Shown here in pieces: positions 8,305-64,000 of a stretch of 64,000 nt of DNA. This DNA comes from Deltaproteobacteria bacterium IMCC39524. Its GTDB lineage: Bacteria > Desulfobacterota > Desulfuromonadia > Desulfuromonadales > BM103. The number at the start of each line of letters is the position of its first letter. Position 1 is the stretch's first letter. The notes beneath the pieces were generated by a model that was given only the letters and a program-made list of their open reading frames with translations, was not told the origin of the DNA and did not search any database. The stretch covers positions 124,001-188,000 of the forward strand of contig JARUHJ010000002.1 in the NCBI GenBank assembly GCA_029667085.1, written 5' to 3'. Position numbers and translations under genes: made by a program.

Positions 8305-8410
8305 AAATGGCCACACTTTGCCAGGTGGCCATAGTTTTGTGTATTAAACAGCTTACTGAATACCTATATCAATAAGAAGCCATATTCCGTCTTAGAAGTC
8401 GTAACAAATA
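8305..8410 (+). repeat. Dispersed accessory repeat, copy 1 (right half)
   Basis: It starts with the hairpin GGCCAC...GTGGCC (8309-8330) and continues through TATTAAACAGCTTACTGAAT and ATCAATAAGAAGCC to GAAGTCGTAAC. It closely matches the right halves at 9588, 11828, 16661 and 20656. The left half is not recognisable here. Confidence 0.88.
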
Positions 8411-9392: not shown

Positions 9393-9513
9393 GTTCTCTT
9401 TATAGGTAGTCCTGCAAGCCTGTAGATCATTTTCATCCCCCGACAAAAACATCAAATAAGATTCTGTTAATCTACTCGCCGATAGGCAGTAAGTAAAGGG
9501 TTATTTATTGTTT

Positions 9514-9700
9514 ATCCTCTTGCATTGTTTTGAGGTCTCCAGATTCAATAAAACACGAAATTCTTGCTGACTCTGCATTCCAGTAAAAAAGGTCACCAAA
9601 GCGTAAACCCTGGTGACCATAATTTTGTGGATTAAAGAGCTTACTGAATACCTCTATCAATAAGAAGCCGTTTTTCTTCTCGTAAGTCGTGAATTGTAAA
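9514..9700 (+). repeat. Dispersed accessory repeat, copy 2 (complete)
   Basis: The left half runs from ATCCTCTTGCATTGTTTTGA through CGAAATTCTTGCTGACTCTG to CCAGTAAA. The hairpin GGTCACC...GGTGACC follows, with compensating changes relative to GGCCACC/GGTGGCC in other copies. The right half carries GGATTAAAGAGCTTACTGAA and ATCAATAAGAAGCCG, ending AGTCGTGAATTG. It lies between the barrel gene and the small zinc-ribbon gene. Confidence 0.9.
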
Positions 9701-9715
9701 AAAAGTGTCTGATCT

Positions 9716-9892
9716 TCATGGATAACATGGATGCCTTGTTTGGCAGGATTCGCATGTCCATGTTTTGTTCTTATTGCGGGTCATTTTTTCGCCACACTCT
9801 GGGCAGCGGAGATCTCGATGTAAATACCCAAAAGCCGAAACACAAATGATTAAAAGAACAAATACAGCAAGAATAAAACCTGCAACTCCCAA
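9716..9892 (-). CDS. Small membrane zinc-ribbon protein
   Basis: The 58-residue protein has one N-terminal transmembrane helix (GVAGFILAVFVLLIICVSAF) followed by a cytoplasmic-type zinc ribbon with CPEC and CESC pairs. The start is taken as TTG because GGGAGGTGA lies 6-7 bases before it; an upstream start would run through that site. The ribosome site overlaps the end of the 25-residue gene, implying translational coupling. Function is unknown; the fold resembles short rubredoxin-like or DNA-binding ribbons tethered to the membrane. Confidence 0.6.
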   Translation of the reverse strand: MGVAGFILAVFVLLIICVSAFGYLHRDLRCPECGEKMTRNKNKTWTCESCQTRHPCYP

Positions 9893-9896
9893 AAGA

Positions 9897-9974
9897 TCAC
9901 CTCCCTCGGAAAAGGCAAAGAAACAGCACAAACACTGCAACCAGGACAACTATGACGCCGATTATATCTTCCAT
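9897..9974 (-). CDS. 25-residue single-helix membrane peptide
   Basis: The peptide is an acidic MED start followed by a hydrophobic helix (IIGVIVVLVAVFVLFLCLF) and a basic RGR end, giving inside-positive topology at the C terminus. AAGGAG lies 8 bases before the ATG. Its last codons overlap the ribosome site of the following zinc-ribbon gene. Composition, ribosome site and coupling support a real small protein; its function is unknown, and it could serve mainly as a coupled leader. Confidence 0.55.
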   Translation of the reverse strand: MEDIIGVIVVLVAVFVLFLCLFRGR

Positions 9975-10045
9975 TTAAAAATCTCCTTTTTTAAAAAAAT
10001 AGGCTCAATAGAATAATTTTCACATACCCTGCATTATAACAAAAA

Positions 10046-10086
10046 ATCCCCGCAGCCAAAGGATGGGGGAAGAGGTCTACGGGGAA
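10046..10086 (-). terminator. Terminator after the lipoprotein gene
   Basis: On the minus strand CCCCGTAG pairs with CTGCGGGG and is followed by ATTTTTTG. It is about 200 bases beyond the lipoprotein stop and just before the small-protein pair. TTATAAT follows at once and may be the -10 of that pair. Confidence 0.65.
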
Positions 10087-10287
10087 TGTCATTCAGGAGG
10101 CAAACAATTATCTGTTTACCCACCTATATTTTATCACTTTTCCCAACTCCTCATATATCCTTTCATTAAGTTCGACAACATAGGAATGCCCCCGGTCATA
10201 AGAAGGAGGGGCTTTCGTGTTTTATCAGTAGCTATCTATGGGATACACACCCAATTATATTCACTCACAATTTTGGATTTGTATTGC

Positions 10288-11750: not shown

Positions 11751-11926
11751 AAATCCTCTCACATTGTTTTGATGCCGTCAAACTTACAGAAATGCGAAAT
11801 TCTTGTTAACCCTGACATATAGGAAAGGCCACCAAGGATCGAACCCTGGTGCCATAGTTTTGTCTTCCTGAATGTCTCTATCAATAAGAAGCCGGTTTTC
11901 TTCTCATAAGTCGTGACATTTAAGAC
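11751..11926 (+). repeat. Dispersed accessory repeat, copy 3 (complete)
   Basis: The left half contains CACATTGTTTTGA and ATGCGAAATTCTTGTTAACC. The hairpin is GGCCACCAAGGATCG...CTGGTGCC. The right half lacks about 15 bases of the usual TATTAAAGAGCTTA part but keeps ATCAATAAGAAGCCG and ATAAGTCGTGACAT. It separates the methyltransferase and sulfatase units. Confidence 0.9.
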
Positions 11927-15602: not shown

Positions 15603-15769
15603 TTATTTCCTCCTTGTTAGTATGTCCTACAATCAAAGAATCATCCCGATGATGGGGAAAAAAAGAAATTCAACAGTATGGCAGCCCATAACCAAAGCCA
15701 CCAAAAGCTACGTTAACCTAACTTTAGTTTCCTCCAGAACAGTAGGCTCAAATCCAGTGAATCAAACAA

Positions 15770-15807
15770 AAAAACCGCTGGTCAGCAATAAGCCGACAAC
15801 AGCGGTT
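15770..15807. repeat. Hairpin associated with the dispersed repeat (copy b)
   Basis: AAACCGCTG pairs with CAGCGGTT around GTCAGCAATAAGCCGACAA. It matches the hairpin at 9351-9392, and the 120 bases after each copy also share blocks such as TCATCC(A)TCCCCC and ACATCAAA. Confidence 0.7.
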
Positions 15808-15927
15808 GAAGTTTGATGAGTCTTGTCCAGTAAGTCGTTCGATCATCCATCCCCCATAGGATACATCAAAATTGCCATACAAATTATACTCGAGAAAAAT
15901 TAGCCGTCAAAGGGACGAGGTTCTTAT

Positions 15928-16004
15928 TATCCCTCCTACATTGTTTTGAGGGTTTGAAATTGGTTGAAATGCGAAATTCTTACTAACCCTGCAATTCAGT
16001 AAAA
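15928..16004 (+). repeat. Dispersed accessory repeat, copy 4 (left half)
   Basis: It contains TACATTGTTTTGAGGGTTTG, AATGCGAAATTCTTACTAAC and CCTGCAATTCAGTAAAA, then loses similarity. It lies immediately upstream of the serine recombinase, while a right half lies immediately downstream (16661). Confidence 0.88.
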
Positions 16005-16083
16005 TCTTCCGATCCTAGATAAACTTTCATGACCACTCCCACAGCAGCGGATGGGCAAAGACAGCTATTAAAGGGAGGCTATC

Positions 16084-16656
16084 ATGGGCATGAGAGTAGG
16101 TTATGCAAGGGTTAGTACCGTTGGCCAGAAACTGGAAGTTCAAATGGACCACTTGTCAGATTGTGAACGCATCTTTCGAGAGAAAGCCTCGGCCAGTTCG
16201 ACCAAAAATCGTCCTGAACTAAAAAATGCTCTCGACTTTGTTAGGGAGGAAGATGTTTTCGTGGTCACAAAGCTTGATCGCCTTGCTCGATCCGTAGTTG
16301 ATTTATCAATAATTGTTCAGCGACTTGAAGAGAAGAATGTGGATCTCGTTGTCATGGACCAGGGGATCGACACCACAACCATCTACGGCAAACTTCAATT
16401 CAACATTCTCGCAGCTATTGGTGAATTTGAGCGAGGATTGATCAGGGAACGCTCACTGGAGGGCCGAGAGAAAGCCAAAGCTCGCGGTGTTGTCTTCGGG
16501 GCGAAACCAAAACTTACACCTCAAGAGATAGTCGAACTTGTAAATGATTACGAAACGCCAGGGTGTAGTAAACGTGAGATTGCCGAACATTATGGCATCA
16601 GCACATCCTCTGTATATCGACTATATTATGAGAACAGACAGGCATTGTCTGCATGA
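16084..16656 (+). CDS. Serine recombinase (resolvase/invertase family)
   Basis: The 190-residue protein is the size of Tn3 resolvase and Hin/Gin invertases. The N terminus is MGMRVGYARVSTVGQKLEVQ with nucleophile Ser11. Conserved Arg residues are in TKLDRLARS and GEFERGLIRERSLEG, and the C-terminal helix-turn-helix is CSKREIAEHYGISTSSVYRL. It should cut and rejoin short paired sites through Ser-DNA intermediates. GGGAGG lies 6 bases before the ATG. No transposase, inverted terminal repeats or invertible segment is obvious next to it. It is flanked by a left half and a right half of the dispersed repeat, which makes it the prime candidate enzyme for the array. Confidence 0.92.
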   Translation: MGMRVGYARVSTVGQKLEVQMDHLSDCERIFREKASASSTKNRPELKNALDFVREEDVFVVTKLDRLARSVVDLSIIVQRLEEKNVDLVVMDQGIDTTTIYGKLQFNILAAIGEFERGLIRERSLEGREKAKARGVVFGAKPKLTPQEIVELVNDYETPGCSKREIAEHYGISTSSVYRLYYENRQALSA

Positions 16657-16660
16657 ACAC

Positions 16661-16773
16661 AAAAGGCCACCCGACGATGATCCGGTGGCCTTGATTCTGT
16701 GGATTAAAGAGCTTACTGAATACCTCGATCAATAATAACCCGATTTTCGTCTTATAAGTCGTGATTTACAAAA
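16661..16773 (+). repeat. Dispersed accessory repeat, copy 5 (right half)
   Basis: It starts with the hairpin AAAAGGCCACCCG...CCGGTGGCCTT only five bases after the recombinase stop, so it probably also serves as its terminator. It then carries GGATTAAAGAGCTTACTGAA, ATCAATAATAACCCG and ATAAGTCGTGAT. Confidence 0.9.
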
Positions 16774-16845
16774 ACATTCATCGTGGGTGCTTGAGTCCGG
16801 ATTGATCCCCGAACCAGCCGGTGCAGGTACTGGAATGAAATAATG

Positions 16846-18237
16846 TTACTCAAGTAGACTAGAAAGAAGGTCAATCCCCGACGGGATTTCTTCAATGGGG
16901 ATTCCACCGAAACCGATCAGCAGCTTGTTGTGCTCTTTTTTGCCATCTACATAAAAATCTGAAAACGACAGCAACCTGCATTCCCGTTGCTTCGCTTGAC
17001 TGATAAATTCAGTCTCATCCTTAATCCTATCCGCTAACTCCAAGACAATATGAAGTCCAGCGCCTTGGCCGATTACCGTTACCTTATCTCCGAAACTTTG
17101 CTCAATCGCTCGAAGCGTTAAGTCGTGTTTCTTTTTGTAAAATATGCGGACACGTCTCAAATGCTGCTCCCAATGTCCCTGCTCCATGAAAGAAATCATC
17201 GCCCGTTGAGTTAGGAGAGGAACAGGAGAAAGATAATTTTTAAACTTCTTCTTGTAGGTATCTGCCAACCGAGCAGGAAGAACCATGTAGCATAAGCGTA
17301 ACGCCGGAGAGAAAACCTTTGAGAAGCTCCCCAGATAGATAATGTTCCCTTGAGGATTCAACCCTTGGAGAGACGAAATTGGTCTTCCTATATATCGGAG
17401 CTCACTGTCGTAATCATCCTCTATAATAAACTTTTCACCCATATCGGCCCAGGAGATGAGCTTTAATCTATCAGCGACAGGCATGACGTAACCGAGCGGC
17501 ATCTGGTGTGAAGGCGTTATATAAACAACCGTGCTCTCGCTTGATTTCAGTATATTTGGATTGAGGGTGGAAGAACCTATATCTATTGGATTGATTCTGA
17601 AACCGAGATTTCTGAATACATCTTGCGGTAGATGGTAGCCGGGATTTTCAGTAGCGATGGAACTGTGGTCATCCCGAATTAACTGGGCAACTATCTCCAG
17701 GTTCTGTTGCAATCCTGAACTAATAACTATTTGATCCGGGCTACAGTGAACACCGCGAGAACGCTCCAGATAAAATTGAATGTTGCAACGTAACCCCCAT
17801 TCGCCTTGAGGTTCGCTGTACTCAGAAAAACTACCTGCTTCCGTGCGAACGGCGTCAATGAGACATCTTCTCCAGTGAGTTGTAGGAAAAACTTCAGGGT
17901 CGAGGCGAGCCGGATGGAAATCAAATCGATAACGCTCTGCCAACTTTGGGTGAAGATCCTGCTTCGGATAAGACACAGTTGTCGCAGTCGCTAGCTCCAG
18001 TTCAATGTCTGAGACAAAGTAACCACTCCGCGACTTGCTGTAGATGTACCCCTCCGCACACAGTTCTTGGAAAGCCCCTTCAATTGTATTGCGGCTTGCT
18101 GACAACTCTTCCGCTAAGTCCCGAATTGAAGGAAGCTTAGTATGCGCTGGCAACTTTCCTGACAATATTTTTTCTTGAATTTGAAGGAAAAGTTGCTGGT
18201 AGAGCGGAGTGGAATCTGTATTGTTTAAATTAAACAT
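16846..18237 (-). CDS. MocR-type transcription regulator (GntR HTH + aminotransferase-like domain)
   Basis: The 463-residue protein has an N-terminal GntR winged helix (residues 8-75, TKLPSIRDLAEELSASRNTI) joined to a fold-type-I aminotransferase-like domain. The PLP-lysine is in YLGSFSKVFSPALRL, with upstream IEDDYDSELRY and TPSHQMPLG. MocR regulators such as PdxR and GabR sense PLP or amino compounds and usually control a divergent neighbour. Here that is an FMN-binding pyridoxamine-oxidase-like gene, which fits a vitamin B6 or amine-linked circuit. The DNA-binding region and PLP site look intact. Confidence 0.9.
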   Translation of the reverse strand: MFNLNNTDSTPLYQQLFLQIQEKILSGKLPAHTKLPSIRDLAEELSASRNTIEGAFQELCAEGYIYSKSRSGYFVSDIELELATATTVSYPKQDLHPKLAERYRFDFHPARLDPEVFPTTHWRRCLIDAVRTEAGSFSEYSEPQGEWGLRCNIQFYLERSRGVHCSPDQIVISSGLQQNLEIVAQLIRDDHSSIATENPGYHLPQDVFRNLGFRINPIDIGSSTLNPNILKSSESTVVYITPSHQMPLGYVMPVADRLKLISWADMGEKFIIEDDYDSELRYIGRPISSLQGLNPQGNIIYLGSFSKVFSPALRLCYMVLPARLADTYKKKFKNYLSPVPLLTQRAMISFMEQGHWEQHLRRVRIFYKKKHDLTLRAIEQSFGDKVTVIGQGAGLHIVLELADRIKDETEFISQAKQRECRLLSFSDFYVDGKKEHNKLLIGFGGIPIEEIPSGIDLLSSLLE

Positions 18238-18281
18238 GATCTGATTACGGGCAATCTGTCCTCATAGTTTTTTTGTGAATT

Positions 18282-18313
18282 GTACCTTTTGATGGGGACA
18301 GCAATCAAGTACC
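18282..18313. promoter_or_regulatory. Direct GTACC repeats in the MocR divergent promoter region
   Basis: GTACC(T/C)TT occurs twice, 27 bases apart, between the MocR gene and the FMN-binding gene. MocR regulators typically bind paired direct repeats in the divergent intergenic region. The match is short and the assignment is inference. Confidence 0.4.
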
Positions 18314-19002: not shown

Positions 19003-19070
19003 CGTTTGAATTAAAGTGTCTCTAAAAGGAGCAAGAGGGCGTTGGTTTGAATCTAGCCTATCGGTTACTA

Positions 19071-19155
19071 TTTATACTCTCACCTTGTTTTGACTAGCAG
19101 TGATACACAGAAATGCATAATTGCTGCTTAAGCTTCATTCCAGTAATGGCCACAC
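19071..19155 (+). repeat. Dispersed accessory repeat, copy 6 (left half, diverged)
   Basis: It contains TACTCTCACCTTGTTTTGA, CACAGAAATGCATAATT and TTCATTCCAGTAATGGCCACA, the left-half blocks in the right order. The hairpin and right half have decayed. Confidence 0.75.
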
Positions 19156-19316
19156 CAAAATAATGCACTTGCCCTAATGCTATATGGCTAATATTCAGCC
19201 AAGTTCTAGTTAAATAGCTAGAACTTATAATAAGAACAAATCCTCTTTACCCTGTAAGAGGTTAATTAATAGAGGCAAAGCCCTGTTGGCCTGCTTGTTG
19301 CTAATCTATTAAAGAA

Positions 19317-19396
19317 GAAACTCCGATAAAGGCAAAGTCAGGGTAACCTGATGACGCAAAGCCACGGGTCCTAATTGAGGATAGCCGAGTTACCAG
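19317..19396 (+). promoter_or_regulatory. GEMM-I (cyclic dinucleotide) riboswitch upstream of c7 cytochrome
   Basis: The class-I GEMM core is present: GATAAAGGCAAAG, a P1b stem capped by a GNRA tetraloop (TCAGG-GTAA-CCTGA), GACGCAAAGCCACGGG, and GATAGCCGAGTTACC. The outer stem AACTC/GAGTT closes it. By hand alignment to the well-known Vibrio Vc2 aptamer, the ligand-contacting position 20 reads G, as in c-di-GMP sensors; confirming c-di-GMP versus cGAMP specificity needs a covariance model. Downstream lie a four-codon open frame with a strong ribosome site and a terminator hairpin, then a triheme cytochrome gene. GEMM switches before cytochrome genes are a known Geobacter theme. Confidence 0.88.
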
Positions 19397-19406
19397 GAGG
19401 CCAATA

Positions 19407-19461
19407 ATGAGAAAACAGTAAAAGCCATCCGCATTTATTAAAGTGGGTGGCTTTCTGTTTT
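19407..19461 (+). promoter_or_regulatory. Riboswitch expression platform: MRKQ mini-frame plus terminator
   Basis: AGGAGG 6 bases before ATG AGA AAA CAG TAA gives a four-codon frame. AAAGCCATCC then pairs with GGGTGGCTTT (19421-19454) and is followed by CTGTTTT. The hairpin is a plausible terminator between riboswitch and cytochrome gene; the mini-frame ends exactly at its base. Confidence 0.65.
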
Positions 19462-19491
19462 GGTCGGCATGCTAATTCTAAAGGGGGAATC

Positions 19492-19803
19492 ATGCGTAAG
19501 TACAGTTTCTAAATACTATTGACGTTTGTTTCTTTTTTCTGTTGTGCTTTTAGTGAGGAAAACTACAACCATAAATTTAAGACAGAATATCAAACATCTG
19601 CAGGAATCGTAATTTTTGACCATGAAGTCCATTCCATGGATCGCCTGAATGATTGCCATGCATGCCATAGCGCATTGAAAGCTTTTGGTGGTTCTATGAC
19701 TAAACTGTTGGCGCATAGTTATTGTCAAAATTGTCATGAATCCTCAAAAGGGCCAACCGAATGCAACGGTTGCCACCATCAAAAAAAGATAGCAAGTAAA
19801 TAG
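19492..19803 (+). pseudogene. PpcA-like triheme cytochrome c7, interrupted by in-frame TAA in the signal peptide
   Basis: AGGGGGAAT precedes an ATG reading MRKYSF, then TAA, then ILLTFVSFFCCAFSEEN and the mature protein in the same frame. The mature part has three heme sites (CHACH, CQNCH, CNGCH), an IVIFDHEVHS start and a KGPTECNGCHH end, very like the periplasmic c7 cytochromes (PpcA family, about 70 residues). These shuttle electrons between inner- and outer-membrane cytochromes. The stop at codon 7 would abolish export unless it is suppressed or translation restarts at the TTG at 19519, which would give a signal lacking its basic end. A one-base change (for example TTA to TAA) explains it; a sequencing error is also possible. 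Confidence 0.82.
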
Positions 19804-19895
19804 CTTGGTGTTTAAATCGGACGAAATATGCTAACTTTTACTCCAAAGGATTCGGGAGCTGGGGGAGCGGCTCGAATCCAGTTACCCTCCTTACT

Positions 19896-20032
19896 ATTAA
19901 TCCTCTCGTATTGATTTGGGTTGCTCAGATTGGCAGAAATGAGAAATTCTTACTGCCCCTGCAATCCAATAAAAAGGCCACCCATTCCCAGGTGGCCATT
20001 ATTCATTATATAAGTCGTGACATATAAGAACA
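19896..20032 (+). repeat. Dispersed accessory repeat, copy 7 (internally shortened)
   Basis: The left half is complete (TCCTCTCGTATTGATTTG, CAGAAATGAGAAATTCTTAC, CCTGCAATCCAATAAAA). The hairpin GGCCACCCATTCCCAGGTGGCC is perfect. The right half lacks its middle (the ATTAAAGAGC to AAGAAGCC part) but ends TATAAGTCGTGACATATAAG. Confidence 0.9.
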
Positions 20033-20106: not shown

Positions 20107-20198
20107 AAGGTCTCGATAAAACCAAACTTGCTGAAAAGCAGGGACGGAAAGCGGCGGATCTCACTTCTTAAACACTTCCAGATGGCCGAGCTACCGAA
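20107..20198 (+). promoter_or_regulatory. Second GEMM-I-like riboswitch, variant core
   Basis: The core reads CGATAAAACCAAAC, a P1b stem with GAAA tetraloop (TTGCT-GAAA-AGCAG), GGGACGGAAAGCGGCGG, and GATGGCCGAGCTACC. Outer stem GGT-CTC pairs with GAG-ct-ACC. Relative to Vc2 the 21:46 pair appears changed from G-C to C-G (a covariation), and position 20 reads A. A20 is the change reported to favour cGAMP over c-di-GMP, so this may be a cGAMP switch; that is inference from hand alignment. It controls the exported EFDYSPR-repeat gene 65 bases downstream. Confidence 0.7.
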
Positions 20199-20233
20199 GG
20201 ACAAATTCTAACGGTGCGCTCGGTTTTATTTTT
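20186..20233 (+). terminator. Terminator overlapping the riboswitch 3' strand
   Basis: CCGAG-C-TACCG pairs with CGGTG-CG-CTCGG and runs into TTTTATTTTT. The left arm is also the 3' strand of the aptamer's closing stem, so aptamer folding and termination exclude each other. Ligand binding should therefore turn the downstream gene on. Confidence 0.75.
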
Positions 20234-20655: not shown

Positions 20656-20770
20656 AGAAGGCCACCAAGGATCGTCCCCTGGTGGACATAGTTTTGTGTA
20701 TTAAACAGCTTCCTGAATGTCTCTATCAATAAGAAGCCGTTTTTCATCTCAGAAGTCGTGACTTTTAACA
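20656..20770 (+). repeat. Dispersed accessory repeat, copy 8 (right half)
   Basis: It contains GGCCACCAAGGATCG...CCCTGGTGG, ATAGTTTTGTGTATTAAAC, ATCAATAAGAAGCCG and AGAAGTCGTGAC. It lies between the EFDYSPR gene and the TpsB-like gene. The left half is absent. Confidence 0.9.
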
Positions 20771-20890
20771 ACTAGGTTGCATTCTATACTTTTTTGGTTA
20801 TATTTTGGGGGTGTTTTTGTTTTCGTAGAGCTCTCTGGCCACTAAGTGAAATTGGTGGCTCCTGAAAATTTTAGTAGAGAGGTAAGTTTT

Positions 20891-22621
20891 ATGCATTTCA
20901 TTGTTATGTGTGGGGTTTTCGCTTCGTTTTTAATCTCTACACAAACTATTGCCGCGCCCTTGCCAAACTCTGGAAGTCTGTATCGCCAAATCAAAGACGA
21001 TTCTTTGCGCGACATTGGCAAAGGTAAAAAGCAACCTGAAACAGAGATCTCAGTTCCAGACCAAATAACCTATGATGATACGCATCAACTGCACGTCAAT
21101 GGTTTTAAGATTGTTGGCAACACGCGTCTGAGTAAAAATGAACTTCATCATGTAATGCAACCCTTTACAAATCGCCTGCTTAACACATCGGCGCTACATG
21201 AAGCGGCCAACACCTTGATGAGATATTATCGAAATCAAGGCTATTTTGCCGCTAAAGTCTACATCCCACCGCACAGTATTCACGAAGGAATCGTCATTTT
21301 ACATGTCTACGAAGGCTATCTGGAAGATGATGGTATAGAACTGGAGAATAGTGGTGATCGCGTCAAAGACGATATCATCACAAAACTTTTAACGAGCACC
21401 CTAAAGCCGGGAATTATCATAAAAGAGGATTATGAACGTGCCATTCTTTTAGCTAACGACCTCCCTGGCATTACTGCAAGGGGGGTCCTGTACCCAGGGC
21501 GTGAGGTTGGTGCTGCAGGATTTTTATTGCAAACTCATGATGAAGATGTCTTTCAGGGCAACTTAGACTATGACAACTTCGGTGATTATTACACTGGCGA
21601 GAACCGTTTTGGGACAACACTGTATTTCAACAGCCCAACTAAAAACGGTGAGGAGTTGGTTTTCAGGTTTGTGACTACTGGCGAATACTCTAATTTTGGT
21701 TATGTTGATCTAGCTGTTCCCGTTTCAGATAATGATATGCGTATCGGCGCATCTTTTGACTATTATAAGTATAAACTTGATCATGAATTTCGCGATGTAG
21801 GCGCTGAGGGTGATGCTTTTAGTGCTCGGGTTTATGTAAAATATCCCTTTGTGCGTACGCGACATAACAACGTTCATGGTGAAGCGAGTTATATCTATAC
21901 CAGGATGACCGATGAGTCAGATGCAGGAGAGTTAGCAGATCGCGTAGTGCATACAGGAGTATTCGGTCTTCACGGAGATCATGATGATGATTTTGTCTCA
22001 AATGGAGTCACCTATTTTGATTCTTCTCTAACGGTTGGCTATCTCGACTTAGATGGCAATGATGGTTATGAAAATTTCGATGACATGACGGCTGAAACAG
22101 CCGGGAGTTTTGCTAAATTAAACGTTTCATTATCAAGGCTACAGCATCTCTATGGAAATCTTTCGTCCAATATTTCTGTTTCAGGCCAAATTGCAAACAA
22201 AAACCTAGACACCTCGCAAAAATTCTATCTTGGGGGCCCTTATAGTGTGGGTGGATATCCAACGGGTCAGGCAGGTGGAGATGATGGAGCGCTGTTAAAT
22301 GCAGATCTGAGGTATGATTTTTATGATCTCCCCTGGAAAGGGAATCTCCAACTCAGCGCCTTCTATGCATATGGCTGGACTAAACTTCACAAGGACCCCT
22401 GGGATGGCTGGGAAGGGAATAACGATTTCATAAAGAATGATATTGTACTTCAATCTGTTGGACTTACTTTGACTCAAACATGGAGCGACACTATGGTGAT
22501 CCGTGCAATGTTGGGGCGACAAATTGGTAATAATGACACGAAATGGCCAGATACTGGTGAAGCCAGAGATCGTTCGGATAGTGACTATCGTTTCTGGATA
22601 AATACGATTTTTTATTTTTAG
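20891..22621 (+). CDS. TpsB/FhaC-type outer-membrane transporter (two-partner secretion)
   Basis: The 576-residue protein has a signal peptide (MHFIVMCGVFASFLISTQTI, cleavage after AA-AP). It has POTRA-like segments (HVNGFKIVGNTRLSKNELHH, near residues 70-230) and a 16-strand-type barrel ending FWINTIFYF. At the conserved L6 tip of Omp85/TpsB barrels, normally VRGY/F, it reads SVGGYPTGQ: the key Arg is Gly. The start was set at the ATG with GAGAGG upstream, not the GTG 15 codons earlier. The next gene starts 9 bases later and encodes a secreted Pro/Thr repeat protein, presumably its cargo, although that protein lacks a recognisable TPS domain. Confidence 0.85.
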   Translation: MHFIVMCGVFASFLISTQTIAAPLPNSGSLYRQIKDDSLRDIGKGKKQPETEISVPDQITYDDTHQLHVNGFKIVGNTRLSKNELHHVMQPFTNRLLNTSALHEAANTLMRYYRNQGYFAAKVYIPPHSIHEGIVILHVYEGYLEDDGIELENSGDRVKDDIITKLLTSTLKPGIIIKEDYERAILLANDLPGITARGVLYPGREVGAAGFLLQTHDEDVFQGNLDYDNFGDYYTGENRFGTTLYFNSPTKNGEELVFRFVTTGEYSNFGYVDLAVPVSDNDMRIGASFDYYKYKLDHEFRDVGAEGDAFSARVYVKYPFVRTRHNNVHGEASYIYTRMTDESDAGELADRVVHTGVFGLHGDHDDDFVSNGVTYFDSSLTVGYLDLDGNDGYENFDDMTAETAGSFAKLNVSLSRLQHLYGNLSSNISVSGQIANKNLDTSQKFYLGGPYSVGGYPTGQAGGDDGALLNADLRYDFYDLPWKGNLQLSAFYAYGWTKLHKDPWDGWEGNNDFIKNDIVLQSVGLTLTQTWSDTMVIRAMLGRQIGNNDTKWPDTGEARDRSDSDYRFWINTIFYF

Positions 22622-22630
22622 GAGCTTGCC

Positions 22631-23728
22631 ATGAGAAAAGTTGCGCCTTTGGCACTATTGCTGTTCTTATTGATGAACAGCATGCTCTTCGCAGGACTTT
22701 GTACGACGGGGAGACACACCGGTAACCCACACTGCCAGAGTCACACCTCAGACAGCGGAAGGGCCCCCAGCGGGACCACGACAGGGATTGGATCTACCGG
22801 AGTAACACCAGACACTTCAACAACCAACCCACACACTGGAACAATTACTCCAGATCATCACAATGCTTACCTTGTTCCGCCTCAACCGATACCAACGCCA
22901 ACAGCAACACCAACGCCGGTGCCGCATCAAGTGCCTCAACCAACACCTGGGAAAATACCGCAGTTGGTTCCATCGCAGGTTGTAACGGGTACGTACGCTA
23001 AAGGGCCTTCAGGCTATGCTCCTGTTCCACCTCAACCGATACCGACGCCAACGGCAACACCAACGCCGGTGCCGCATCAAGTGCCTCAACCAACTCCTGG
23101 GAAAATACCGCAGTTGGTTCCATCGCAGGTTGTAACGGGTACGTATGCTAAAGGGCCTTCAGGCTATGCTCCTGTTCCACCTCAACCGATACCGACGCCA
23201 ACGGCAACACCAACGCCGGTGCCGCATCAAGTGCCCCATCCAACTCCTGGGGCAATACCGCAGTTGGTTCCATCGCAGATTGTAACGGGTACGTATGCTA
23301 AAGGGCCTTCAGGCTATGCTCCTGTTCCACCTCAACCGATACCGACGCCAACAGCAACATCAACGCCGTTACCGCATCAAGTGCCCCATCCAACTCCTGG
23401 GGTAACACCGCAGTTGGTTCCATCGCAGGTTGTAACAGGCATAGTTAGCCCTGGAGCAACCTCACAAGCGTTATTGCCTAAAACACAACCAACGCACTAC
23501 ATCGGAGTCGTGAGCAAAGGCACTCAAATGCCTGTAACCTCTGGAAGGCACATCGTTCAAACGAGTTATGGGTTCAATGTAATCGAGCCTGGCATTCAAA
23601 ATAAGCAAGTAGCCGTATATCGAAGTAATGATGCAAGAGAAATGCTCTACAAAGACACCATCAAAATGGACAATACAGGTTTTTTACTTATAGACTTGGG
23701 CATACGTGATCCGGACTATATTAAATAA
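22631..23728 (+). CDS. Secreted Pro/Thr-rich protein with four 50-residue repeats
   Basis: The 365-residue protein has a signal peptide (MRKVAPLALLLFLLMNSMLF, cleavage after FA). A His/Thr/Gly-rich segment follows, then four tandem repeats of about 50 residues, each with VPPQPIPTPTATPTPVPHQV and ending YAKGPSGYAP (the last incomplete). The C-terminal domain of about 90 residues is globular-looking (GRHIVQTSYGFNVIEPGI, TGFLLIDLGI). The repeats suggest a rigid, possibly glycosylated stalk holding the C-terminal head away from the cell. GGAG precedes the ATG. Overlap in operon position with the TpsB gene implies secretion by it, but the usual TpsA features (about 250-residue TPS domain, beta-helix) are missing. 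Confidence 0.75.
   Translation: MRKVAPLALLLFLLMNSMLFAGLCTTGRHTGNPHCQSHTSDSGRAPSGTTTGIGSTGVTPDTSTTNPHTGTITPDHHNAYLVPPQPIPTPTATPTPVPHQVPQPTPGKIPQLVPSQVVTGTYAKGPSGYAPVPPQPIPTPTATPTPVPHQVPQPTPGKIPQLVPSQVVTGTYAKGPSGYAPVPPQPIPTPTATPTPVPHQVPHPTPGAIPQLVPSQIVTGTYAKGPSGYAPVPPQPIPTPTATSTPLPHQVPHPTPGVTPQLVPSQVVTGIVSPGATSQALLPKTQPTHYIGVVSKGTQMPVTSGRHIVQTSYGFNVIEPGIQNKQVAVYRSNDAREMLYKDTIKMDNTGFLLIDLGIRDPDYIK
22874..23443 (+). repeat. Tandem 150-bp coding repeats (about 3.8 copies)
   Basis: The period is 150 bases: 22874-23023, 23024-23173, 23174-23323 and 23324 onward. Copies 1-3 are nearly identical at DNA level, including synonymous sites; copy 4 is diverged and merges into the C-terminal domain. This indicates recent expansion and a likely length polymorphism. 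Confidence 0.92.
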
Positions 23729-23888: not shown

Positions 23889-24058
23889 CTATAATTCCTC
23901 CTGCATTGCTGTAAGTCACGCAGTTTGACCGAAAAAAATATTCTCACGAACCCTGTCCTACGAGCAAGGGCACCAAGGGTCAAATCCTGATGGCCATCAT
24001 TTGTTGTATTAAAGAGCTCCATGAGTACCCCTCAATCGGGGAAAAAGCCATGGCCGTG
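23889..24058 (+). repeat. Dispersed accessory repeat, copy 9 (diverged, complete order)
   Basis: It carries TAATTCCTCCTGCATTG, ATATTCTCACGAACCCTG, GGCACCAAGGGTCAAATCCTGATGGCC and TGTATTAAAGAGCTCC in the family order. It is the most degraded and last copy, coinciding with the end of the accessory region; beyond it gene style returns to that of the backbone. Confidence 0.7.
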
Positions 24059-47909: not shown

Positions 47910-50900
47910 ATGGCAAAAAGCACTGACGGCGAAAAAGGAAATACCGTGATTGAAGGGATCGAGCAAGGGCAGCAGGTTGAGGTCGCCCTTATTGCCCCGG
48001 ATGGAACCATTTCCCTTCCACAGCCTGCAGAAAATCTCGAATCCGTTTCTGTAGCGGACGTCGATTTATTGTTGCGCTTTTCTGATGGCACCTTCGTCAT
48101 CATACCCAATGGTGCGCTTGATGCTGCTATTAACTCCGAGCAGGCAGTCTTTTTTACGACGGATGACAGCGACAATGATCATCAGAGTAGCTTGGGTGAT
48201 CTTTTTAAAATGGTCGGTATTACCCGAATTGCAGGTCCCGGCAGCGTAAGGGTTGTGAGTGAAAATGTTGAAGTCATACAAGCGCTGGAAGAAGACGTTG
48301 ATCCAGAAAAACATGACTATGATCCTGCCCCTTCAAGAGAATCATCTCTAAAAGACAAAAGCACTTTATCTGATCCGGTTGAAACGGCAAGCAGCGGTGC
48401 TGCCTTGAACGGTAAGGGGCCGGGGACTGGTGCTACTGATCCAAGTTCATTCCTTGAGGAGACCTCTGATCCGGTAGTGCCGAGAACAACACCTCGGCCT
48501 ACGGTCTATCAGGCAGCTAAAGAAACAGAAGATCTCAGCGAACCGACAGTTACCCTTGATGCAAATATTACCGCTGACGATATCATTAATATTGCTGAAT
48601 CGGGCGGTGACGTCACGGTTACCGGTACGGCTGGCGGCGGCGCCAGGGCCGGTGATGTCGTCACGCTGACGGTTAATGGCATTAACTCTTTTGGCCTGGT
48701 GCAGGGTGATATGACCTTCAGCGCCGTTGTCGCGGGTTCCGACCTTGTTGCTGACGGTGATTACACGATTGACGCCAGTATCACCTCTGCCGGTTCTTCT
48801 AACCCCGGCACAGATACCGAGGGCTACGGTGTCGACATCAAGGCACCTGCCCCGACAATCGAACTTGATGCCAGTCTTGCCGCTGCCGATGTCGTCGCAA
48901 TCGCGGATGATGGCGGTAGTGTGGCGATCACTGGTACCGTCGGCGGTGATGCCCAGGTTGGTGATTTGGTCACTCTGACCGTAAATGGTGTCGATTTTAT
49001 TGGACTGGTTCAAACAGACCTGTCTTTCAGTATCGATGTCGCAGGTTCCGGTTTGGTCGATGGTGAAGGTGTGGTCGACGCCGCACTTATCACCAGCCCA
49101 GATATCGCAGGTAACCCAAGCTTGCTTGGCACTGACACCGTACAATATGATCTCGGCGCACCGGAGCTCGCTGTTGGTCAAAGCTACAATTACGCTGAGA
49201 ACCAAGTCGAAGGCAATGTGATCGCCATTGTTGCTGCCAGCGATGATATAGGTGTTACCGATTTCCGTTTCAGCGCCAGCGGCACCAATCTGAGTGCTGA
49301 CGGTTACTACACGATTTCTTCCGATGGACAAATCAGCATTACATCAGCCGGTGTTGCCGCCGGTGTAGCTCAGAACGATTTTGAGCCCGTTGAAGGCGAC
49401 ATGGTCGCCTTCGTGTCTGCCTCCGATGCCGTCGGGGTGACCGACTTCCGTTTCAGCGCCAGCGGCACCAATCTGAGTGCTGACGGTTTCTATACGATTT
49501 CTTCCGAAGGACAAATCAGCATTACATCAGACGCAGTTGTCGCCGGTGTGGCTCAGAACGACTTTGAGAGTGGGTTTAACAGCTCTATCTATGACATCGA
49601 GGCTGACGATGGGGCGGGCACATGGTCGCCATTCGTAAACATCACCCTTAACGATATCAATTCTTTTAACTATGTCATCGAGGCGGGCGATGCCGCCGGG
49701 AAATGGTCGTCTGCCGAGAACATTATCCTTAACGTTACTAACGTCGATGAGGCCGCCCCGGAGGTTGCCTCTGACCAGATTTTCAACTACGCAGAGGATC
49801 GGTCTGAAGGTGACGTGGTCGCCACCGTGGCGGCAACCGATGATGTTGGTGTTGTCGCCTATCGAATTTCCAGCGGAAACGACAATGGCTATTTTGCCAT
49901 AGATACCAACGGTCAAATTACTCTGACTGCCGACGGTGTGGCTAGCGCGGTCAATGACTACGATACCAATCCGAACAGCTTTGACCTTGGTATCCAGGCC
50001 GTAGATGCCGCGGGTAAATGGTCTACTGAAAAGACCATCACACTTGATGTCTTCGGAGACGTTAATAGTGTCGATCTTACCCCTCCAGAAGTTACAAAAG
50101 GGCAAAGTTTTAGCTATGCTGAGAACCAGGCTGCCGACGCAGTAGTAGCGACTGTTGCGGCCAGTGATGCCCGGGGTGTCGTTAGGTATGAGATTGTCAC
50201 CGGCAATGACAATGGATATTTCTCCATTGACGCTGATGGCCAGATTAAGATCACCGGGGATGGCGTTGCTGCTACAACTAACGACTTTGATGACGGAGTT
50301 GATAGTTTCATCCTCGGTGTTCGGGCCTACGACGCAGCTAATAACCCGTCAATTGTCGAAGATGTCACTCTCTTCGTTACCAATGTGAACGAGGCACCGG
50401 CCGGTACAGACAAAACCATCACGATGCTGGAAGACGGCAGTCACTCCTTCGCGGCCAGTGACTTCGGCTTTACTGACCCAAGCGACCTTCTGGAAAACAA
50501 CCTGGCAGCAGTGGAGATCACCACGGTGCCTGGCGCTGGCACACTGACGCTGAATGGCATAGACGTTAATGCCGGTGATCTCATTGCCGCCGCAGACATT
50601 CATAATCTGGTTTACCAGCCAACGGCTGATGATAATGGTAACGGCTACGCGAGCTTTACCTTCAAGGTGCAGGATGACGGCGGCACGGCTAATGGCGGCA
50701 TCAATCTCGATCCGAGCGCCAACGTCATCACCTTCGACATCACTCCTGTGAACGACGCGCCGGTGGCGACTGCTGATGCTCAGACAACGGAAGAGAACAC
50801 CGTCTTGAGCAGCAATGTTCCTACAGCGACAGATGTTGACGACACCATTGCCAGTTATCAACTGGTCGGTGACGTTTCTGAAGGCACGCTGACCTTCAAC

Positions 50901-53900
50901 GCAGATGGCAGTTACAGTTTCGATCCGGAAACCGCCTTCGACAACCTGGCGGACGGGGACAGTCGCGATGTAACGTTTACTTACACGGCCACCGACGATT
51001 TTGGAGACGTCAGCGACGCCCAGACGGTGACCATCACAGTCACGGGGAAGAACGACGCGCCGGTGGCGACTGCTGATGCTCAGACAACGGAAGAGAACAC
51101 CGTCTTGAGCAGTAATGTTCCTACAGCGACAGATGTTGACGGCACCATTGCCAGTTATCAGCTGGTCGGTGACGTTGCTGAAGGCACGCTGACCTTCAAC
51201 GCAGATGGCAGTTACAGTTTCGATCCGGAAACCGCCTTCGACAACCTGGCGGACGGGGACAGTCGCGATGTAACGTTTACCTACACGGCTACCGACGATT
51301 TTGGAGAAGTCAGCGACGCCCAGACGGTGACCATCACGGTCACGGGGACGAACGACGCGCCGGTGGCGACTGCTGATGCTCAGACAACGGAAGAGAACAC
51401 CGTCTTGAGCAGCAATGTTCCTACAGCAACAGATGTTGATGGTACCATCGACCGCTATCAGCTGGTCGATACGGCTGCTGAGGGCTCCCTGACTTTCAGT
51501 CCAGACGGCAGCTACACCTTCAACCCCGGAACCGACTTCGACGATCTGGCCGCTGGAGTTAGCCGTAACGTCACTTTCACTTACACCGCCACCGATAACT
51601 CGGGTGCGACCAGCGCGATCCAGACAGTGACCATCACGGTCACGGGGACGAACGACGCGCCGGTGGCGACTCCGGATGCTCAGACAACGGAAGAGAACAC
51701 CGTCTTGAACAGCAATGTGCCTGTAGCAACAGATGTTGACGGCACTATCACAGATTATCAGCTGGTCGATACGGTTACCGAAGGCTCTTTGGCTTTCAGC
51801 TCGGACGGCAGCTACACCTTCACCCCCGGAACCGACTTCGACGATCTGGCGGATGGCGCCAGCCGCGACGTTACTTTCACGTATACTGCCACTGACAACC
51901 TTGGAGAGCCCAGTGCGCTTCAGACCGTCACCGTGACCGTGACCGGGAGCAACGACGCACCGACAACAAGTTCGGTCGCCCTGGCGCCAATTGCCGAGGA
52001 TGGTGTCCGGCTGATCACCACGGGAGAGCTCCTGGCCAACGCCAACGATGTCGATAGTGCTAGCGGTAGCCTGACGATCAACAACCTTGTCATCAGCTCC
52101 GGGAATGGCAGCCTGAATGATAACGGCGATGGTACCTGGAACTACACTCCGGCGGCTGACGACGACACCAATGTCAGCTTCAGCTACGATATTAGCGACG
52201 GCATCGATTCGGTCGTTGGCAGTGCAACTCTAGACATCACACCTGTGAATGACGCACCGGTGGCGACACCTGATGCTCAGTCAACGGAAGAGAATACTGT
52301 CTTGAGTAGCAATGTGCCTGTAGCAACAGATGTTGACGGCACCATCGACCGCTATCAGCTGGTCGATACGGTTGCCGAGGGCTCCCTGGCCTTCAGCCCG
52401 GACGGCAGCTACACTTTTAACCCTGGAACCGACTTCGACGATCTGGCCGCTGGAGCTAGCCGTGATGTCACTTTCACCTACACCGCTACCGACAACTCGG
52501 GTGCGACCAGCGCGATTCAGACCGTCACCCTCACAGTGAACGGGACGAACGACGCTCCGGTGGTGACACCTGATGCTCAGACAACGGAAGAGAACACCGT
52601 CTTGAACAGCAATGTGCCTGTAGCAACAGATGTTGACGGCACTATCACAGATTATCAGCTGGTCGATACGGTTACCGAAGGCTCTTTGGCTTTCAGCTCG
52701 GACGGCAGCTACACCTTCACCCCCGGAACCGACTTCGACGATCTGGCGGATGGCGCCAGCCGCGACGTTACTTTCACGTATACTGCCACTGACAACCTTG
52801 GAGAGCCCAGTGCGCTTCAGACCGTCACCGTGACCGTGACCGGGAGCAACGACGCACCGACAACAAGTTCGGTCGCCCTGGCGCCAATTGCCGAGGATGG
52901 TGTCCGGCTGATCACCACGGGAGAGCTCCTGGCCAACGCCAACGATGTCGATAGTGCTAGCGGTAGCCTGACGATCAACAACCTTGTCATCAGCTCCGGG
53001 AATGGCAGCCTGAATGATAACGGCGATGGTACCTGGAACTACACTCCGGCGGCTGACGACGACACCAATGTCAGCTTCAGCTACGATATTAGCGACGGCA
53101 TCGATTCGGTCGTTGGCAGCGCTACTCTGGATATTACTCCGGTGAACGACGCGCCGACAACGACACCCATTACGCTTGATCCGATTGCAGAAGACAGCGG
53201 GGTTCTTGTTATCACTCAAGCGGAACTGTTGGCGAATGTCAGCGATGTTGATGATAACAGTCATACCGTGAGCAACTTGGGGATCACTTCAGGCAGCGGT
53301 ACTTTGATCGATATCGGCGGTGGCACATGGAACTACACACCGGCCGCCAATGACGACACCAGCGTAAGCTTCAGCTACACCATCACTGATAACGGCACGA
53401 CCAATGGGGCGCCTGATCCGAAGAGCGTGAATGGCAGTGCGACATTGGAAATTACACCAGTTAACGATGCACCGGTGGTTGCTGATATTGATGTAACTGG
53501 CGCTGTCACAGAGATGATCGTCCCGTCTGGAAACCTGACTGATAGCGGCACGATCTCCTTTAGCGATGTTGATCTGTCTGATAGTCATAGTGTTAGCTTG
53601 GTAACCTCCTCAGCGGGGGCTTTGGGCTCTCTTAGTGTCAACGTTATCCAAACGGACGGTACCGGCAACGGCGGCGTGATCAACTGGGGCTACACGGTTG
53701 CGGCTTCTGATGTGGAATTCTTGGCTGCTCGCGAAATCAAGGTTGAAACTTTCAGCTTTGATGTGTTGGATGGACAAGGTGGAAGTGTCAGTAGGACTGT
53801 TGAAGTTACCATAACCGGGACCAACGATGAGCCGGTCATTGATGTTGCAAATGTCACGGGTGATATTCTCGAGATGGGCACTCCAGTCGGTAATCTTACT

Positions 53901-56900
53901 GCCTCTGATACCATCACCTTTAGCGATGTGGATTTAAACGATATCCATAGCATTGGTTTAGTGTCCTCGCCTTTAACGCAATTAACTCTTGGCACTCTGA
54001 CCGCGAGTGTGACCGCCGGAACTGACAACACCTCTGGTTTGGGTGGCGAGATTACCTGGCTTTATACAGTGGAAGCTTCTGCCGTAGAATTTCTTGGCGA
54101 CGGCCAATTGCATTCCGAAACTTTTAGTTTTGATGTAATCGACGGGCAAGGTGGGAGCGTTCCCCAGACGGTTACTATAACTATCACTGGCACCAGCGAT
54201 GGCATTAACAATCCGCCTGTGGTCGATGTCGTCGACGTAACCGGCGAAGTTACTGAGATGATTGTCCCAGATGGCAATCTGACCAACAGCGGCACGATTG
54301 GCTTCAGTGATGTAGATGTGATGGATATTCACAGTGTCAGCTCTGTGACCGCGTCAGAAGACGCTTTGGGCAACTTTGCTGCTAACGTTACCACTGATAC
54401 CACTGGTACCGGTATTGGTGGCGTAGTGACCTGGACATATTACGTAGACGCTTTGGCTGTAGAGTATCTGGCTCTGGACGAAACAAAAGTTGAAACTTTC
54501 TCTTTTTATGTTCTTGACGACCGTGGTGGTGCTGTCGAACGAACGGTCGAGGTGACGATTACGGGTACGAATGATGCGCCGACGATCGATGTGGTAGCGA
54601 CCGACGCTGCAGGTGCCATTACGGAGACGGATGGGCCGGTTGTTGATCCTTCCGATCTGACCGATAGCGGCACGATCTCTTACGCCGACGTTGACCTGAC
54701 TGACACACACACTGCCACTATTACTTCGGACGTGACTGGCTATTTGGGTGCCTTCACGCTTGACGCAGCAGTAGACACCGACGCCCGGACTGTGGGCTGG
54801 GATTTCAAAATCGATCCGACTCTGGTCGAGTATTTGGCAGCAGATCAGGAGTTGGTCCAGAGTTACACCGTAACCATCAAGGATCAGCATGACGAACCGG
54901 TCGATCAGATTGTGACGATCACGGTCACCGGAACCAACGATGCGCCTGTGATCAATGCGATCACGAAGACAGACGTGTCGGAGCAGACTGATACGGATGT
55001 TTTGACCAGTGAGATTGATGTCACCTTTACGGACATTGATCTTGCCGATGTGGATCACAGCGCCAGTATCACAGACGTAACCTATAGCGGAGTGTTCACC
55101 GGCCTGACTCTAGATAAAGCGGCCCTGATTGACCTGATCAGCGTCGGCACCGTGACGAAGGCAGAGGGAAGTGATGCTGGCAGCCTGACTCTGACTTTTG
55201 AGGCAGGTTCGACGGCATTTGACTACTTGGCCGATGGTGAGATTGTTACCTTGACCTACACCGCCGAAGTGGATGATGGCGATGGCGACACGGACACTCA
55301 GAACTTTGTCGTAGAGATCACCGGTACGAACGATGTGCCGACGATCGATGTGGTAGCGACCGATGCTGCAGGTGCTATTACGGAGACGGATGGGCCGGTT
55401 GTTGATCCTTCCGATCTGACCGATAGCGGCACGATCTCTTACGCCGACGTTGACCTGACTGACACACACACTGCCACTATTACTTCGGACGTGACTGGCT
55501 ATTTGGGTGTCTTCACGCTTGACGCAGCAGTAGACACCGACGCCCGAACTGTGGGCTGGGATTTCAAAATCGATCCGACTCTGGTCGAGTATTTGGCGGC
55601 AGATCAGGAGTTGGTCCAGAGTTACACCGTGACCATTAAGGACAACAATGGAGAGCCGGTCAACCAAATTGTGAAGGTGACGATTACCGGCACCAATGAC
55701 GCACCGGTAGCTGTAGCCGATACTGCCAATGCGGTCGAGGCAGGTGGTGTAGACAACGACATTACGGGCAGCAATGCCACTGGGAATGTGCTCACGAACG
55801 ATCAGGATGTTGACAGTGCTGCCGGTGGTGAAACCAAGGCCGTGTTGGCAGTATCTGGCGATACCGCAAATGTGGGCGTGGATGTTATTGGAACCTACGG
55901 CACGCTGACCCTGAACGCAAACGGCAGCTACACCTATGTGGTTGACGAAAGCAATTCCACTGTTCAGGAACTTCGCATATCCGGGCAAACCGTCTCCGAG
56001 TCCTTTGCCTATACGATGGCCGATGGTCAAGGTTCGACCAGTTCCAGTACCTTAACCATCACGGTCAAAGGTAGCAACGATGCGCCGGTGGCTGTCGCCG
56101 ATACGGGGAGTGCAGAAGAGGCTGGTGGGGTAGATAATGGCACTCTGGGCAGCAATGCCACCGGTAATGTTCTCACGAATGACACCGATGTTGATAGTGA
56201 GCTCAATGGCGAGACTAAAGCCGTGTCGGCCGTCAGCGGCGATTCCTCAAATGTGGACAAAGCGGTAGTCGGAACTTACGGCACGCTCACCTTGAGTGCT
56301 GATGGCAGCTATACCTATGTGGTCGATGAAAACAATGCTGATGTTCAAGCGCTGCGCGTCGCCGGAGAAACTGTCTCTGAAGAATTTAGCTACACTGTTG
56401 TTGATGCAGGAGGACTCTCCAGTTCCAGCACTTTGACCATCACAGTCGAAGGGCGCAACGATGCTCCGACGGCAATTGAAATGCTTGGTACTGTTGTAAA
56501 TGATAAGGCTGATGCTGGAACCCTGATCAGTGTGCTTTCTGGAGTCGATGTGGATGCGGGCGATACATTTACCTACAAGTTGGTTGACGACGTCAATTTT
56601 GCTGACAACGCGCTGGTTGAGATTGTTGGGAACGAGTTGCGAGTTAAGACTGATGGCACGATTGATTATGATACCAATCCAACTCTTGAAATCAAGGTCG
56701 AGGTCACTGATGCTGAAGGGTTGAGCCATGAGGAGAGTTTAACCGTCAATGTCATCAACCTGGATGATGGTCCACCAGAGATTGTACTCGACCAGTCGTA
56801 CATCTACCTCGAAGGGCAGTCTGACCCAGGAGGCGGGTTGGGTAAAGTCGTTGCGACCGTTGCAGCAACAGATGACATAGGTGTCACCGATTTCCGTTTT

Positions 56901-62729: not shown

Positions 62730-62752
62730 AGGCTTCGATCCGCCAGGAGAGC

Positions 62753-64000
62753 ATGAACGTCCTTTTTGCCCATCAAAATTTCCCGGGTCAGTTCAAACAC
62801 CTGGCACCACACGTGGCGGCCGACCCAAACAACCGGGTCGTGGCTTTACACATCAATTCTGCACCCAGGCTGCCGGGTGTCGAAATGGTGAGTTACTCTC
62901 CAGAAAGAGGCACGACGCCAAAAATACACCCCTGGGTCTCGGACCTGGAAACCAAGGTTATCCGCGGCGAGGCGGCCTGCCGAGCGGCTAAAAGACTGAA
63001 GCAGTCAGGATTTAACCCGGATGTCATCGTTGCTCATCCTGGTTGGGGCGAGAGCTTGTTCTTGAAAGATGTCTGGCCGAACGCCAAACTTGGGATTTAT
63101 TGCGAATACTACTACCAGGCCGAGGGTGGAGACGTTAATTTTGACCCGGAGTTTTCCAGAGGTGAAAACGATGATCCTTGCCGCATTCGCCTGAAGAATG
63201 CTTTTTATGCCTTGCAGATGGCAGAGGTAAAGGCAGGTCTTTCTCCCACACACTGGCAGCGTTCCACCTTTCCAGAGCCGTTCCGCAATAGAATCAGCGT
63301 GGTCCATGATGGGATTGATACCAACTCTGTACGTCCTGACCCCAATTCCACTTTGCAACTTAAAACCAGGGGAGGGGACGACTTCACGTTGACCAAAAAT
63401 GATGAAATCATCACTTTTGTCAATCGTAACCTGGAGCCTTATCGTGGTTACCATATCTTTATGCGGGCACTGCCGAAAATCCTGCAAGAAAGGCCCCGTG
63501 CGCGCGTCTTGATCGTTGGCGGAGATGACACAAGTTACGGACAGAAACCCGAACAATCGGGTGTTTCTAAGTCTAAAGGAAAAAGTTGGAAGCAAATTTT
63601 TCTGGATGAAGTCAGTCCTGAACTCGATTTAAGCAGAGTGCATTTTCTTGGTAAACTTCCTTACCGGCAGTATCTTGATCTTTTGCAACTATCGACCGTG
63701 CATGTTTACTTGACTTACCCCTTTGTGTTGAGTTGGAGTCTGTTAGAAGCCATGAGCACAGGGTGCTCCATCGTGGCAAGTGATACCGCCCCGGTTCGAG
63801 AGGCGGTTCATCACAATGAAACGGGCAGATTGGTGGACTTTTTCGATGTTGATGGCTTGGCTGAAAATGTCATTGAACTCTGCCAAAAACCTGATGAACG
63901 TCTACGGCTTGGAGCTGCTGCCAGGACTTTTGCGGTCGAACACTACGACCTGTCCAAAATTTGCTTGCCAGGGCAACTGAGATGGCTGGAAGATTTAGCT
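62753..64000 (+). CDS. GT4-type glycosyltransferase (3' end outside window)
   Basis: The 416 residues visible start MNVLFAHQNFPGQFKHLAPH with AGGAG 5 bases before the ATG. The GT-B fold is suggested by an N-terminal domain ending VVHDGIDTN, then TFVNRNLEPYRGYHIFMRAL, ARVLIVGGDDTSYG, and the donor-site motif YPFVLSWSLLEAMSTGCSIV followed by REAVHHNETGRLVDFFD. The EAM-x-x-G-x-x-(V)-A-S motif marks GT family 4. It begins 23 bases after the adhesin stop. Large glycosyltransferases like this often accompany giant secreted adhesins; whether it glycosylates the adhesin or makes exopolysaccharide is open. Confidence 0.88.
   Translation, partial: MNVLFAHQNFPGQFKHLAPHVAADPNNRVVALHINSAPRLPGVEMVSYSPERGTTPKIHPWVSDLETKVIRGEAACRAAKRLKQSGFNPDVIVAHPGWGESLFLKDVWPNAKLGIYCEYYYQAEGGDVNFDPEFSRGENDDPCRIRLKNAFYALQMAEVKAGLSPTHWQRSTFPEPFRNRISVVHDGIDTNSVRPDPNSTLQLKTRGGDDFTLTKNDEIITFVNRNLEPYRGYHIFMRALPKILQERPRARVLIVGGDDTSYGQKPEQSGVSKSKGKSWKQIFLDEVSPELDLSRVHFLGKLPYRQYLDLLQLSTVHVYLTYPFVLSWSLLEAMSTGCSIVASDTAPVREAVHHNETGRLVDFFDVDGLAENVIELCQKPDERLRLGAAARTFAVEHYDLSKICLPGQLRWLEDLA

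Follow-up and report, generated by a model that had tools for sequence, protein, structure and literature searches.

A small serine recombinase gene within an array of mobile cassettes that probably form an integron-like system

We analyzed a 64,000-nucleotide window (positions 124001-188000 of contig C2) from the 3.78 Mb genome of an anaerobic bacterium, the assembly of which is 99.99% complete. On the forward strand of this window, the ORF at 16084-16656 encodes a small serine recombinase of the resolvase/invertase type. The protein matches the Pfam Resolvase domain (PF00239, E 3.5e-38) and has a weak C-terminal HTH match, aligns nearly full length, and about equally well by score, to both phage Mu Gin and gamma-delta resolvase, and retains all of the catalytic residues R9, S11, R43, D65, R66, and R69 of that alignment. 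Its Resolvase domain, catalytic Ser/Arg set, C-terminal HTH, and length of 190 aa are those of the small serine recombinases. Two forward-strand repeats flank the gene, as the original prediction had stated. An L module at 15926-15992 (profile E 2.1e-17) forms the 3’ end of the preceding cassette and an R module at 16661-16764 (E 2.2e-24), beginning 4 bp past the recombinase stop codon, forms the 3’ end of the recombinase cassette. The gene is also, as had been claimed, the sole recombinase in the repeat-bearing stretch of the window (8.3-24.0 kb), and no transposase was noticed among its adjoining ORFs in a reading of the ORF list.

The same arrangement recurs elsewhere. The original prediction had called for a search for further recombinase-containing copies, and the genome indeed holds three more within arrays, so that all four array copies have the order L, recombinase, R. 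Two of these genes are intact (the window copy and one on C13), one contains stops, and one a frameshift. In two copies, an additional stretch with a small ORF separates L from the recombinase. The named relatives of the protein come from MAGs of Desulfuromonadales, Desulfuromonas, and Geobacteraceae, and in the other array copies, as in the orthologs from Desulfuromonadales MAGs, R lies a few bp after the stop codon and L ~90 bp before the ATG. The L-recombinase-R arrangement is not due to chance, since it recurs in the further copies and in orthologs.

Neither module is confined to the recombinase gene. In the 344 kb of this genome that the profile-searched loci cover, we counted 104 R and 65 L modules, and 246 kb of another genome of the genus (G017) contained 79 R and 54 L modules. 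They occupy contigs C11, C12, and C13, parts of C14 and C15, and the ends of C1, C3, C4, and C10, in dense runs. Across seven genomes, 333 of 348 adjacent modules are co-oriented and 15 opposed. Between successive modules sit one or a few unrelated genes, which run to hundreds across this bacterium and its relatives. The genes are oriented with the array in 27 cases and against it in 41. This cargo is diverse, with 64 Pfam families found among 82 ORFs of C11-C13, including response regulators, glyoxalases, LysR regulators, an ArsP permease, YceI, SCO1, and a ZIP transporter. The sequences in these loci are thus an array of mobile gene cassettes, each with a recombination site at its end, as in integrons.

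Within the window, the isolated copies that had been noted at 8305, 19071, and 20656 are real and were recovered by the repeat profile search, on the forward strand like the other window modules given here, as an R module at 8305-8402, an L module at 19069-19128, and an R module at 20658-20761. Complete L+R copies with constant spacing lie at 9509-9692 and 11751-11916 and number 36 in the loci read, where 62 R modules (among those with a complete start) have no L immediately upstream and 27 L modules have no R immediately downstream. L modules followed by a truncated R occur at 19895-20005 and at 23890-24036, the latter closing the window array on its right side. The cassette at 19136-19961, delimited by two L cores, is also present at C13:18376-19202 with 93.5% identity. 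L and R are two modules of one cassette array, and each forms the 3’ attachment end of a cassette; what looks like a complete copy consists of an L module with an R mini-cassette lacking a gene immediately behind it. The original prediction was right that repeats and recombinase belong together, but its view of L and R as halves of one split element does not hold, as each occurs alone.

Several other features were observed in these loci. Two c-di-GMP-I riboswitches (19322-19398 and 20112-20199) lie within neighboring cassettes; thus, some cassettes bring their own regulation. Two blocks that are non-coding or contain short ORFs (9726-10028 and 10027-10186) recur at many array positions, with or without an R after them, and elsewhere the second fits exactly from an L core to the left edge of an R. 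A 1.4-kb element is present in two inverted copies of 99.5-99.7% identity on C11 (L010:9211-10592, and L010:19571-20000 joined to L011:1-952), located within R modules at about model positions 67-79, and is possibly an R-targeting insertion sequence. Just within the right end of the array, 22631-23728 encodes a proline-rich protein with 150-bp tandem repeats, and the adjoining ORF at 20846-22621 reads as a two-partner-secretion-type transporter. Outside of the array, the very long tandem-repeat region at 48000-63000, with 300-nt, 381-nt, and RTX-like 27-nt units, is probably a giant calcium-binding adhesin.

When the copies were aligned at their ends, R modules shared the consensus TTCTCANAAGTC-GT-GACTTATAAGAA and L modules the consensus TTCTTACTAACC-CT-GANATATAAGAA, with conservation of both breaking off sharply ~12 bp beyond the core and the sequence being random thereafter. 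When all centers and spacers were scanned over 162 R and 148 L modules, one dyad came out best in both classes, with arms of 12 bp separated by a 2-bp spacer at an identical offset and 7.07 (R) and 6.20 (L) of 12 positions matching compared to a mean of about 3.1-3.2. This spacer, or core, reads GT in 173 of 183 R modules (95%) and CT in 136 of 140 L modules (97%). Around the window recombinase, the L-type 26-bp crossover site TTCTTACTAACC-CT-GCAATTCAGTAA spans 15977-16002 with its core at 15989-15990, and the R-type site GTCTTATAAGTC-GT-GATTTACAAAAA spans 16749-16774 with its core at 16761-16762. The exchange point had been predicted to be the AAAA at which the halves join; the cores are found instead ~10-12 bp before the AAAA-type join (CT) and at the far end of R (GT). 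Judged by its sequence, this 26-bp dyad, with inverted half-sites of 12 bp flanking a 2-bp core, has the crossover-site anatomy of a small serine recombinase. The left half-sites are better conserved than the right half-sites, which is expected if each right half-site starts the next cassette.

The modules also contain hairpins. A longer form of the L module extends over ~15764-15992 and includes a forward-strand hairpin, AACCGCTG...CAGCGGTT, at 15773-15807; this upstream hairpin stretch recurs in relatives both alone and together with L. The R module carries a terminator-like hairpin, GGCCACC...GGTGGCC, on the forward strand at 16665-16690, which covaries across copies, six of its eight pairs having changed on both sides (0/500 shuffles). 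RNAalifold found no consensus structure for the repeat as a whole, though the R hairpin alone covaries, and a search of Rfam returned no match for the repeat, the region giving only a tRNA and the two c-di-GMP riboswitches. We rejected L+R as one structured RNA or attC-like strand, as the DNA fold was weak (z -1.1) and the fold as a minus-strand RNA was moderate (z -2.5) and came mostly from the R hairpin.

Among the ends of segments shared between arrays, 41 of 229 fell ≤5 bp from a core versus 1.0% expected, a count that derives from related segments, so that the ends are not all independent. We also compared cassettes having the same start behind different sites, which yielded 14 families within and between genomes. 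Over the 60 bp preceding the core, identity was ~0.6, rising to 0.92-0.99 (about 0.96) from the core onward, and the averaged step falls on the first core base, with single-pair change points varying by a few bases and three outliers. None of the 14 families combined an L with an R site (6 L-L and 8 R-R), as expected if cores must match. The cassette following the recombinase begins at the GT core and occupies 16763-18300 of the forward strand (right end provisional), its gene, GntR/MocR-type by ORF reading, lying on the reverse strand at 16846-18237. In another genome (G016:C36), this cassette has 88% identity and the same core start and sits behind a different R module and a different gene, without a recombinase, which supplies the recombinase-free site that the original prediction had suggested looking for. 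A second, weaker class of breakpoints lies at the left edge of R, between AAAA and GGCCACC (e.g. window position 10186 versus several other copies), and is not fully explained. Site-specific exchange at the cores is nonetheless well supported by these sequence comparisons.

We considered whether the modules might be ordinary interspersed repeats, such as terminators or MITE-like sequences, with the genes shuffled by homologous recombination between them. The terminator-like hairpin of R fits this explanation, and copies are often 70-90% alike, which is enough for occasional homologous exchange. However, the exchange points concentrate at the 2-bp core rather than being spread over the 70-106 bp of homology, the core classes are unmixed in the 14 families, conservation stops sharply at the half-site, and the runs are co-oriented, all of which makes this explanation highly improbable. 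We rejected a fixed MITE- or IS-derived unit as well, because L and R are independent and segments end at the cores, not at unit ends. A two-site invertase or resolvase system was similarly rejected as a description of the arrays.

A different history was proposed in the original prediction, namely that the recombinase gene had inserted into an L-R repeat at AAAA or that the L-R copies arose from an L-recombinase-R element by deletion. In its favor, nearly every copy of the gene lies between L and R, and L-R copies do exist. Nevertheless, the window recombinase cassette matches its C11:25322 copy all the way from the L core to the end of R, yet the preceding L modules and the following DNA differ. 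Because different L modules precede near-identical recombinase cassettes, L does not travel with the gene, contrary to both versions of this history. In addition, dozens of other genes are accompanied by R or L alone, and we give such an origin very little credence. The related suggestion that short copies are non-autonomous derivatives is true only in a wide sense: most cassettes bear other genes and would need a recombinase supplied in trans.

The distribution of the system was examined in 136 genomes of the order, among which R modules are dense solely in the family of the window, and recombinases of about 73% identity or more are also present in other families, including where the R model is absent and the sites are diverged. 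Downstream of the stop codon, sequences of the other-family recombinases differ, with most having a hairpin and a GT-core R-type site at ~+52 or +95-120, and an L-type site is often found upstream of the gene. For 20 homologs with 52-79% identity, most of them from other families, R-type sites ≤200 bp after the stop (combined p 1.6e-11) and L-type sites before the ATG (combined p 6e-7) were enriched relative to random windows of the same loci. Thus, orthologous recombinases in other families tend, as far as sequence can indicate, to carry their own diverged L-type and R-type sites. A complete genome from another family (G062) has a diverged module of its own in several copies, some of them in one cluster around the recombinase. 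Orthologs lacking adjacent repeat halves had been named as evidence against the link between gene and repeat; most of the other-family homologs do carry diverged sites, but several of the 20, chiefly those of ~50-55% identity, have no convincing site, and no convincing R-type sites were found near most of the more distant recombinases of G074 (~50-55%). A sample of 395 genomes from the phylum yielded no member of the recombinase clade beyond the order, and a plasmid or phage origin was rejected, as plasmid relatives are all <60% identical and none occur in phages.

The arrays could be real and yet be moved by another serine or tyrosine recombinase, with the window recombinase being mere cargo. 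Arrays do exist in genomes without it: one draft genome (G007) has 24 R modules (loci L163 and L164) and no Resolvase-domain protein, either because it resembles recombinase-less integron cassette clusters or because the gene is missing from the draft assembly, and a second draft genome (G012) has arrays and only more distant serine recombinases. Candidate alternative enzymes are also available in the genome of the window, which has nine tyrosine-recombinase matches and two other serine recombinases (C1:741123 and C1:119063). The latter, however, are just ~35% identical to the window recombinase, and a dyad symmetric up to a 2-bp core suits small serine recombinases, not the 6-8 bp spacer or folded attC of tyrosine recombinases. 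Moreover, it is this recombinase clade that, in other families too, has L-type and R-type sites in constant positions and that is multi-copy within arrays. We consider another mover unlikely, and favor movement of the cassettes by the window recombinase itself.

Comparison with known systems begins with integrons. The likeness to integrons and superintegrons is considerable, as both have long arrays of single-gene cassettes, each with an end site, which are shuffled, shared between species, and diverse in cargo, and the recombinase-less arrays recall integron CALINs. However, no TIGR02249 match above the cut-off was found for an IntI integrase in this 99.99% complete genome, and an integron with IntI was rejected on that curated cut-off. 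Cores of the attC type (RYYYAAC/GTTRRRY) are absent from the cassette-end consensus. Unlike in integrons, the sites here are 26-bp dyads with a 2-bp core of two classes, the recombinase is itself a cassette inside the array, and the genes point both ways. No fixed attI platform was found beside the recombinase copies, which lie inside arrays; as these extend to the contig ends, a platform may sit at an array end. Lacking both IntI and attC-type sites, the system is not an integron by definition, yet its sequence organization is integron-like in how it appears to work.

The recombinase belongs to a well-known enzyme family. Hin/Gin/Cin invertases and Tn3/gamma-delta resolvases share its sequence family, length, catalytic residues, and sites of 12-bp arms plus a 2-bp core. 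Known small serine recombinases invert one segment or resolve cointegrates using few sites, whereas exchangeable genes are linked here by >100 directly oriented sites. Shufflons and other multi-site inversion systems (Rci, Min, and Mpi) similarly use one recombinase and many sites to create variation. They rearrange fixed segments by inversion, in contrast to cassettes that vary between genomes and sites in direct orientation. SCCmec (Ccr) and elements of the large serine integrases resemble the present system in that a serine recombinase is carried on the DNA being moved, but their recombinases are large (model lengths 442-558), and they have a single attB target and no arrays of single-gene cassettes; the NCBIfam Ccr models score far under their cut-offs for the window recombinase. 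The pdif modules of Acinetobacter also place genes between short recombinase sites and are mobile as modules; they use host tyrosine recombinases at XerC/XerD sites.

Multicopy palindromic intergenic sequences have been reported from Geobacter and Pelobacter genomes as unexplained families (PMC2996986, PMC3543383), and the excerpts of these papers make no tie to a recombinase or to cassettes. No description of serine-recombinase gene-cassette arrays was found in the open-access literature searched. Because the cassette system departs from the defining features of integrons and is unlike the known action of small serine recombinases, we regard it as categorically new as a system, with its priority not certain given that preprints lie outside the literature search.

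Overall, the sequences point to what is probably an integron-like gene-cassette system run by a small serine recombinase, and the window contains part of a large array. Each cassette starts with a right half-site (GANNNATAAGAA), usually carries one unrelated gene in either orientation, and ends in an L or R module, the last 12 bp of which before the core are the left half-site. Two neighboring cassettes together form a 26-bp site with a 2-bp core of CT (L) or GT (R). A Hin/Gin/gamma-delta-type recombinase would bind a pair of these sites, make 2-bp staggered cuts at the core, rotate, and rejoin the ends, such that cassettes could be excised as circles and inserted at any site with the same core and whole stretches could be exchanged between arrays. 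From the array, the site anatomy, the exchange at matching cores, and the linkage of recombinase to sites, all established at the level of sequence, we infer that this recombinase would be the catalyst and that cassettes would pass through circular intermediates. The recombinase gene is itself carried in the array between a CT site and a GT site, and a gene between unequal cores could not leave as a simple circle. Unequal cores could guard it from lone excision and in this way keep it in the array. We lean, by a modest degree, toward the fuller proposal that this is a serine-side analogue of the integron, in which the CT and GT cores are heterospecific, cassettes move within their class, swaps occur by double exchange, and the recombinase gene is protected.

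Integrons are the standard example of gene-cassette storage and reshuffling in bacteria and rely upon one enzyme class and an unusual single-stranded site. If the arrays described here are a second, independent solution, based upon double-stranded sites and a resolvase-like enzyme, then cassette capture evolved more than once. Such a cassette system would also account for the unannotated repeats and the many contig breaks in the genomes of this group, and it would provide a simple two-core recombination toolkit.
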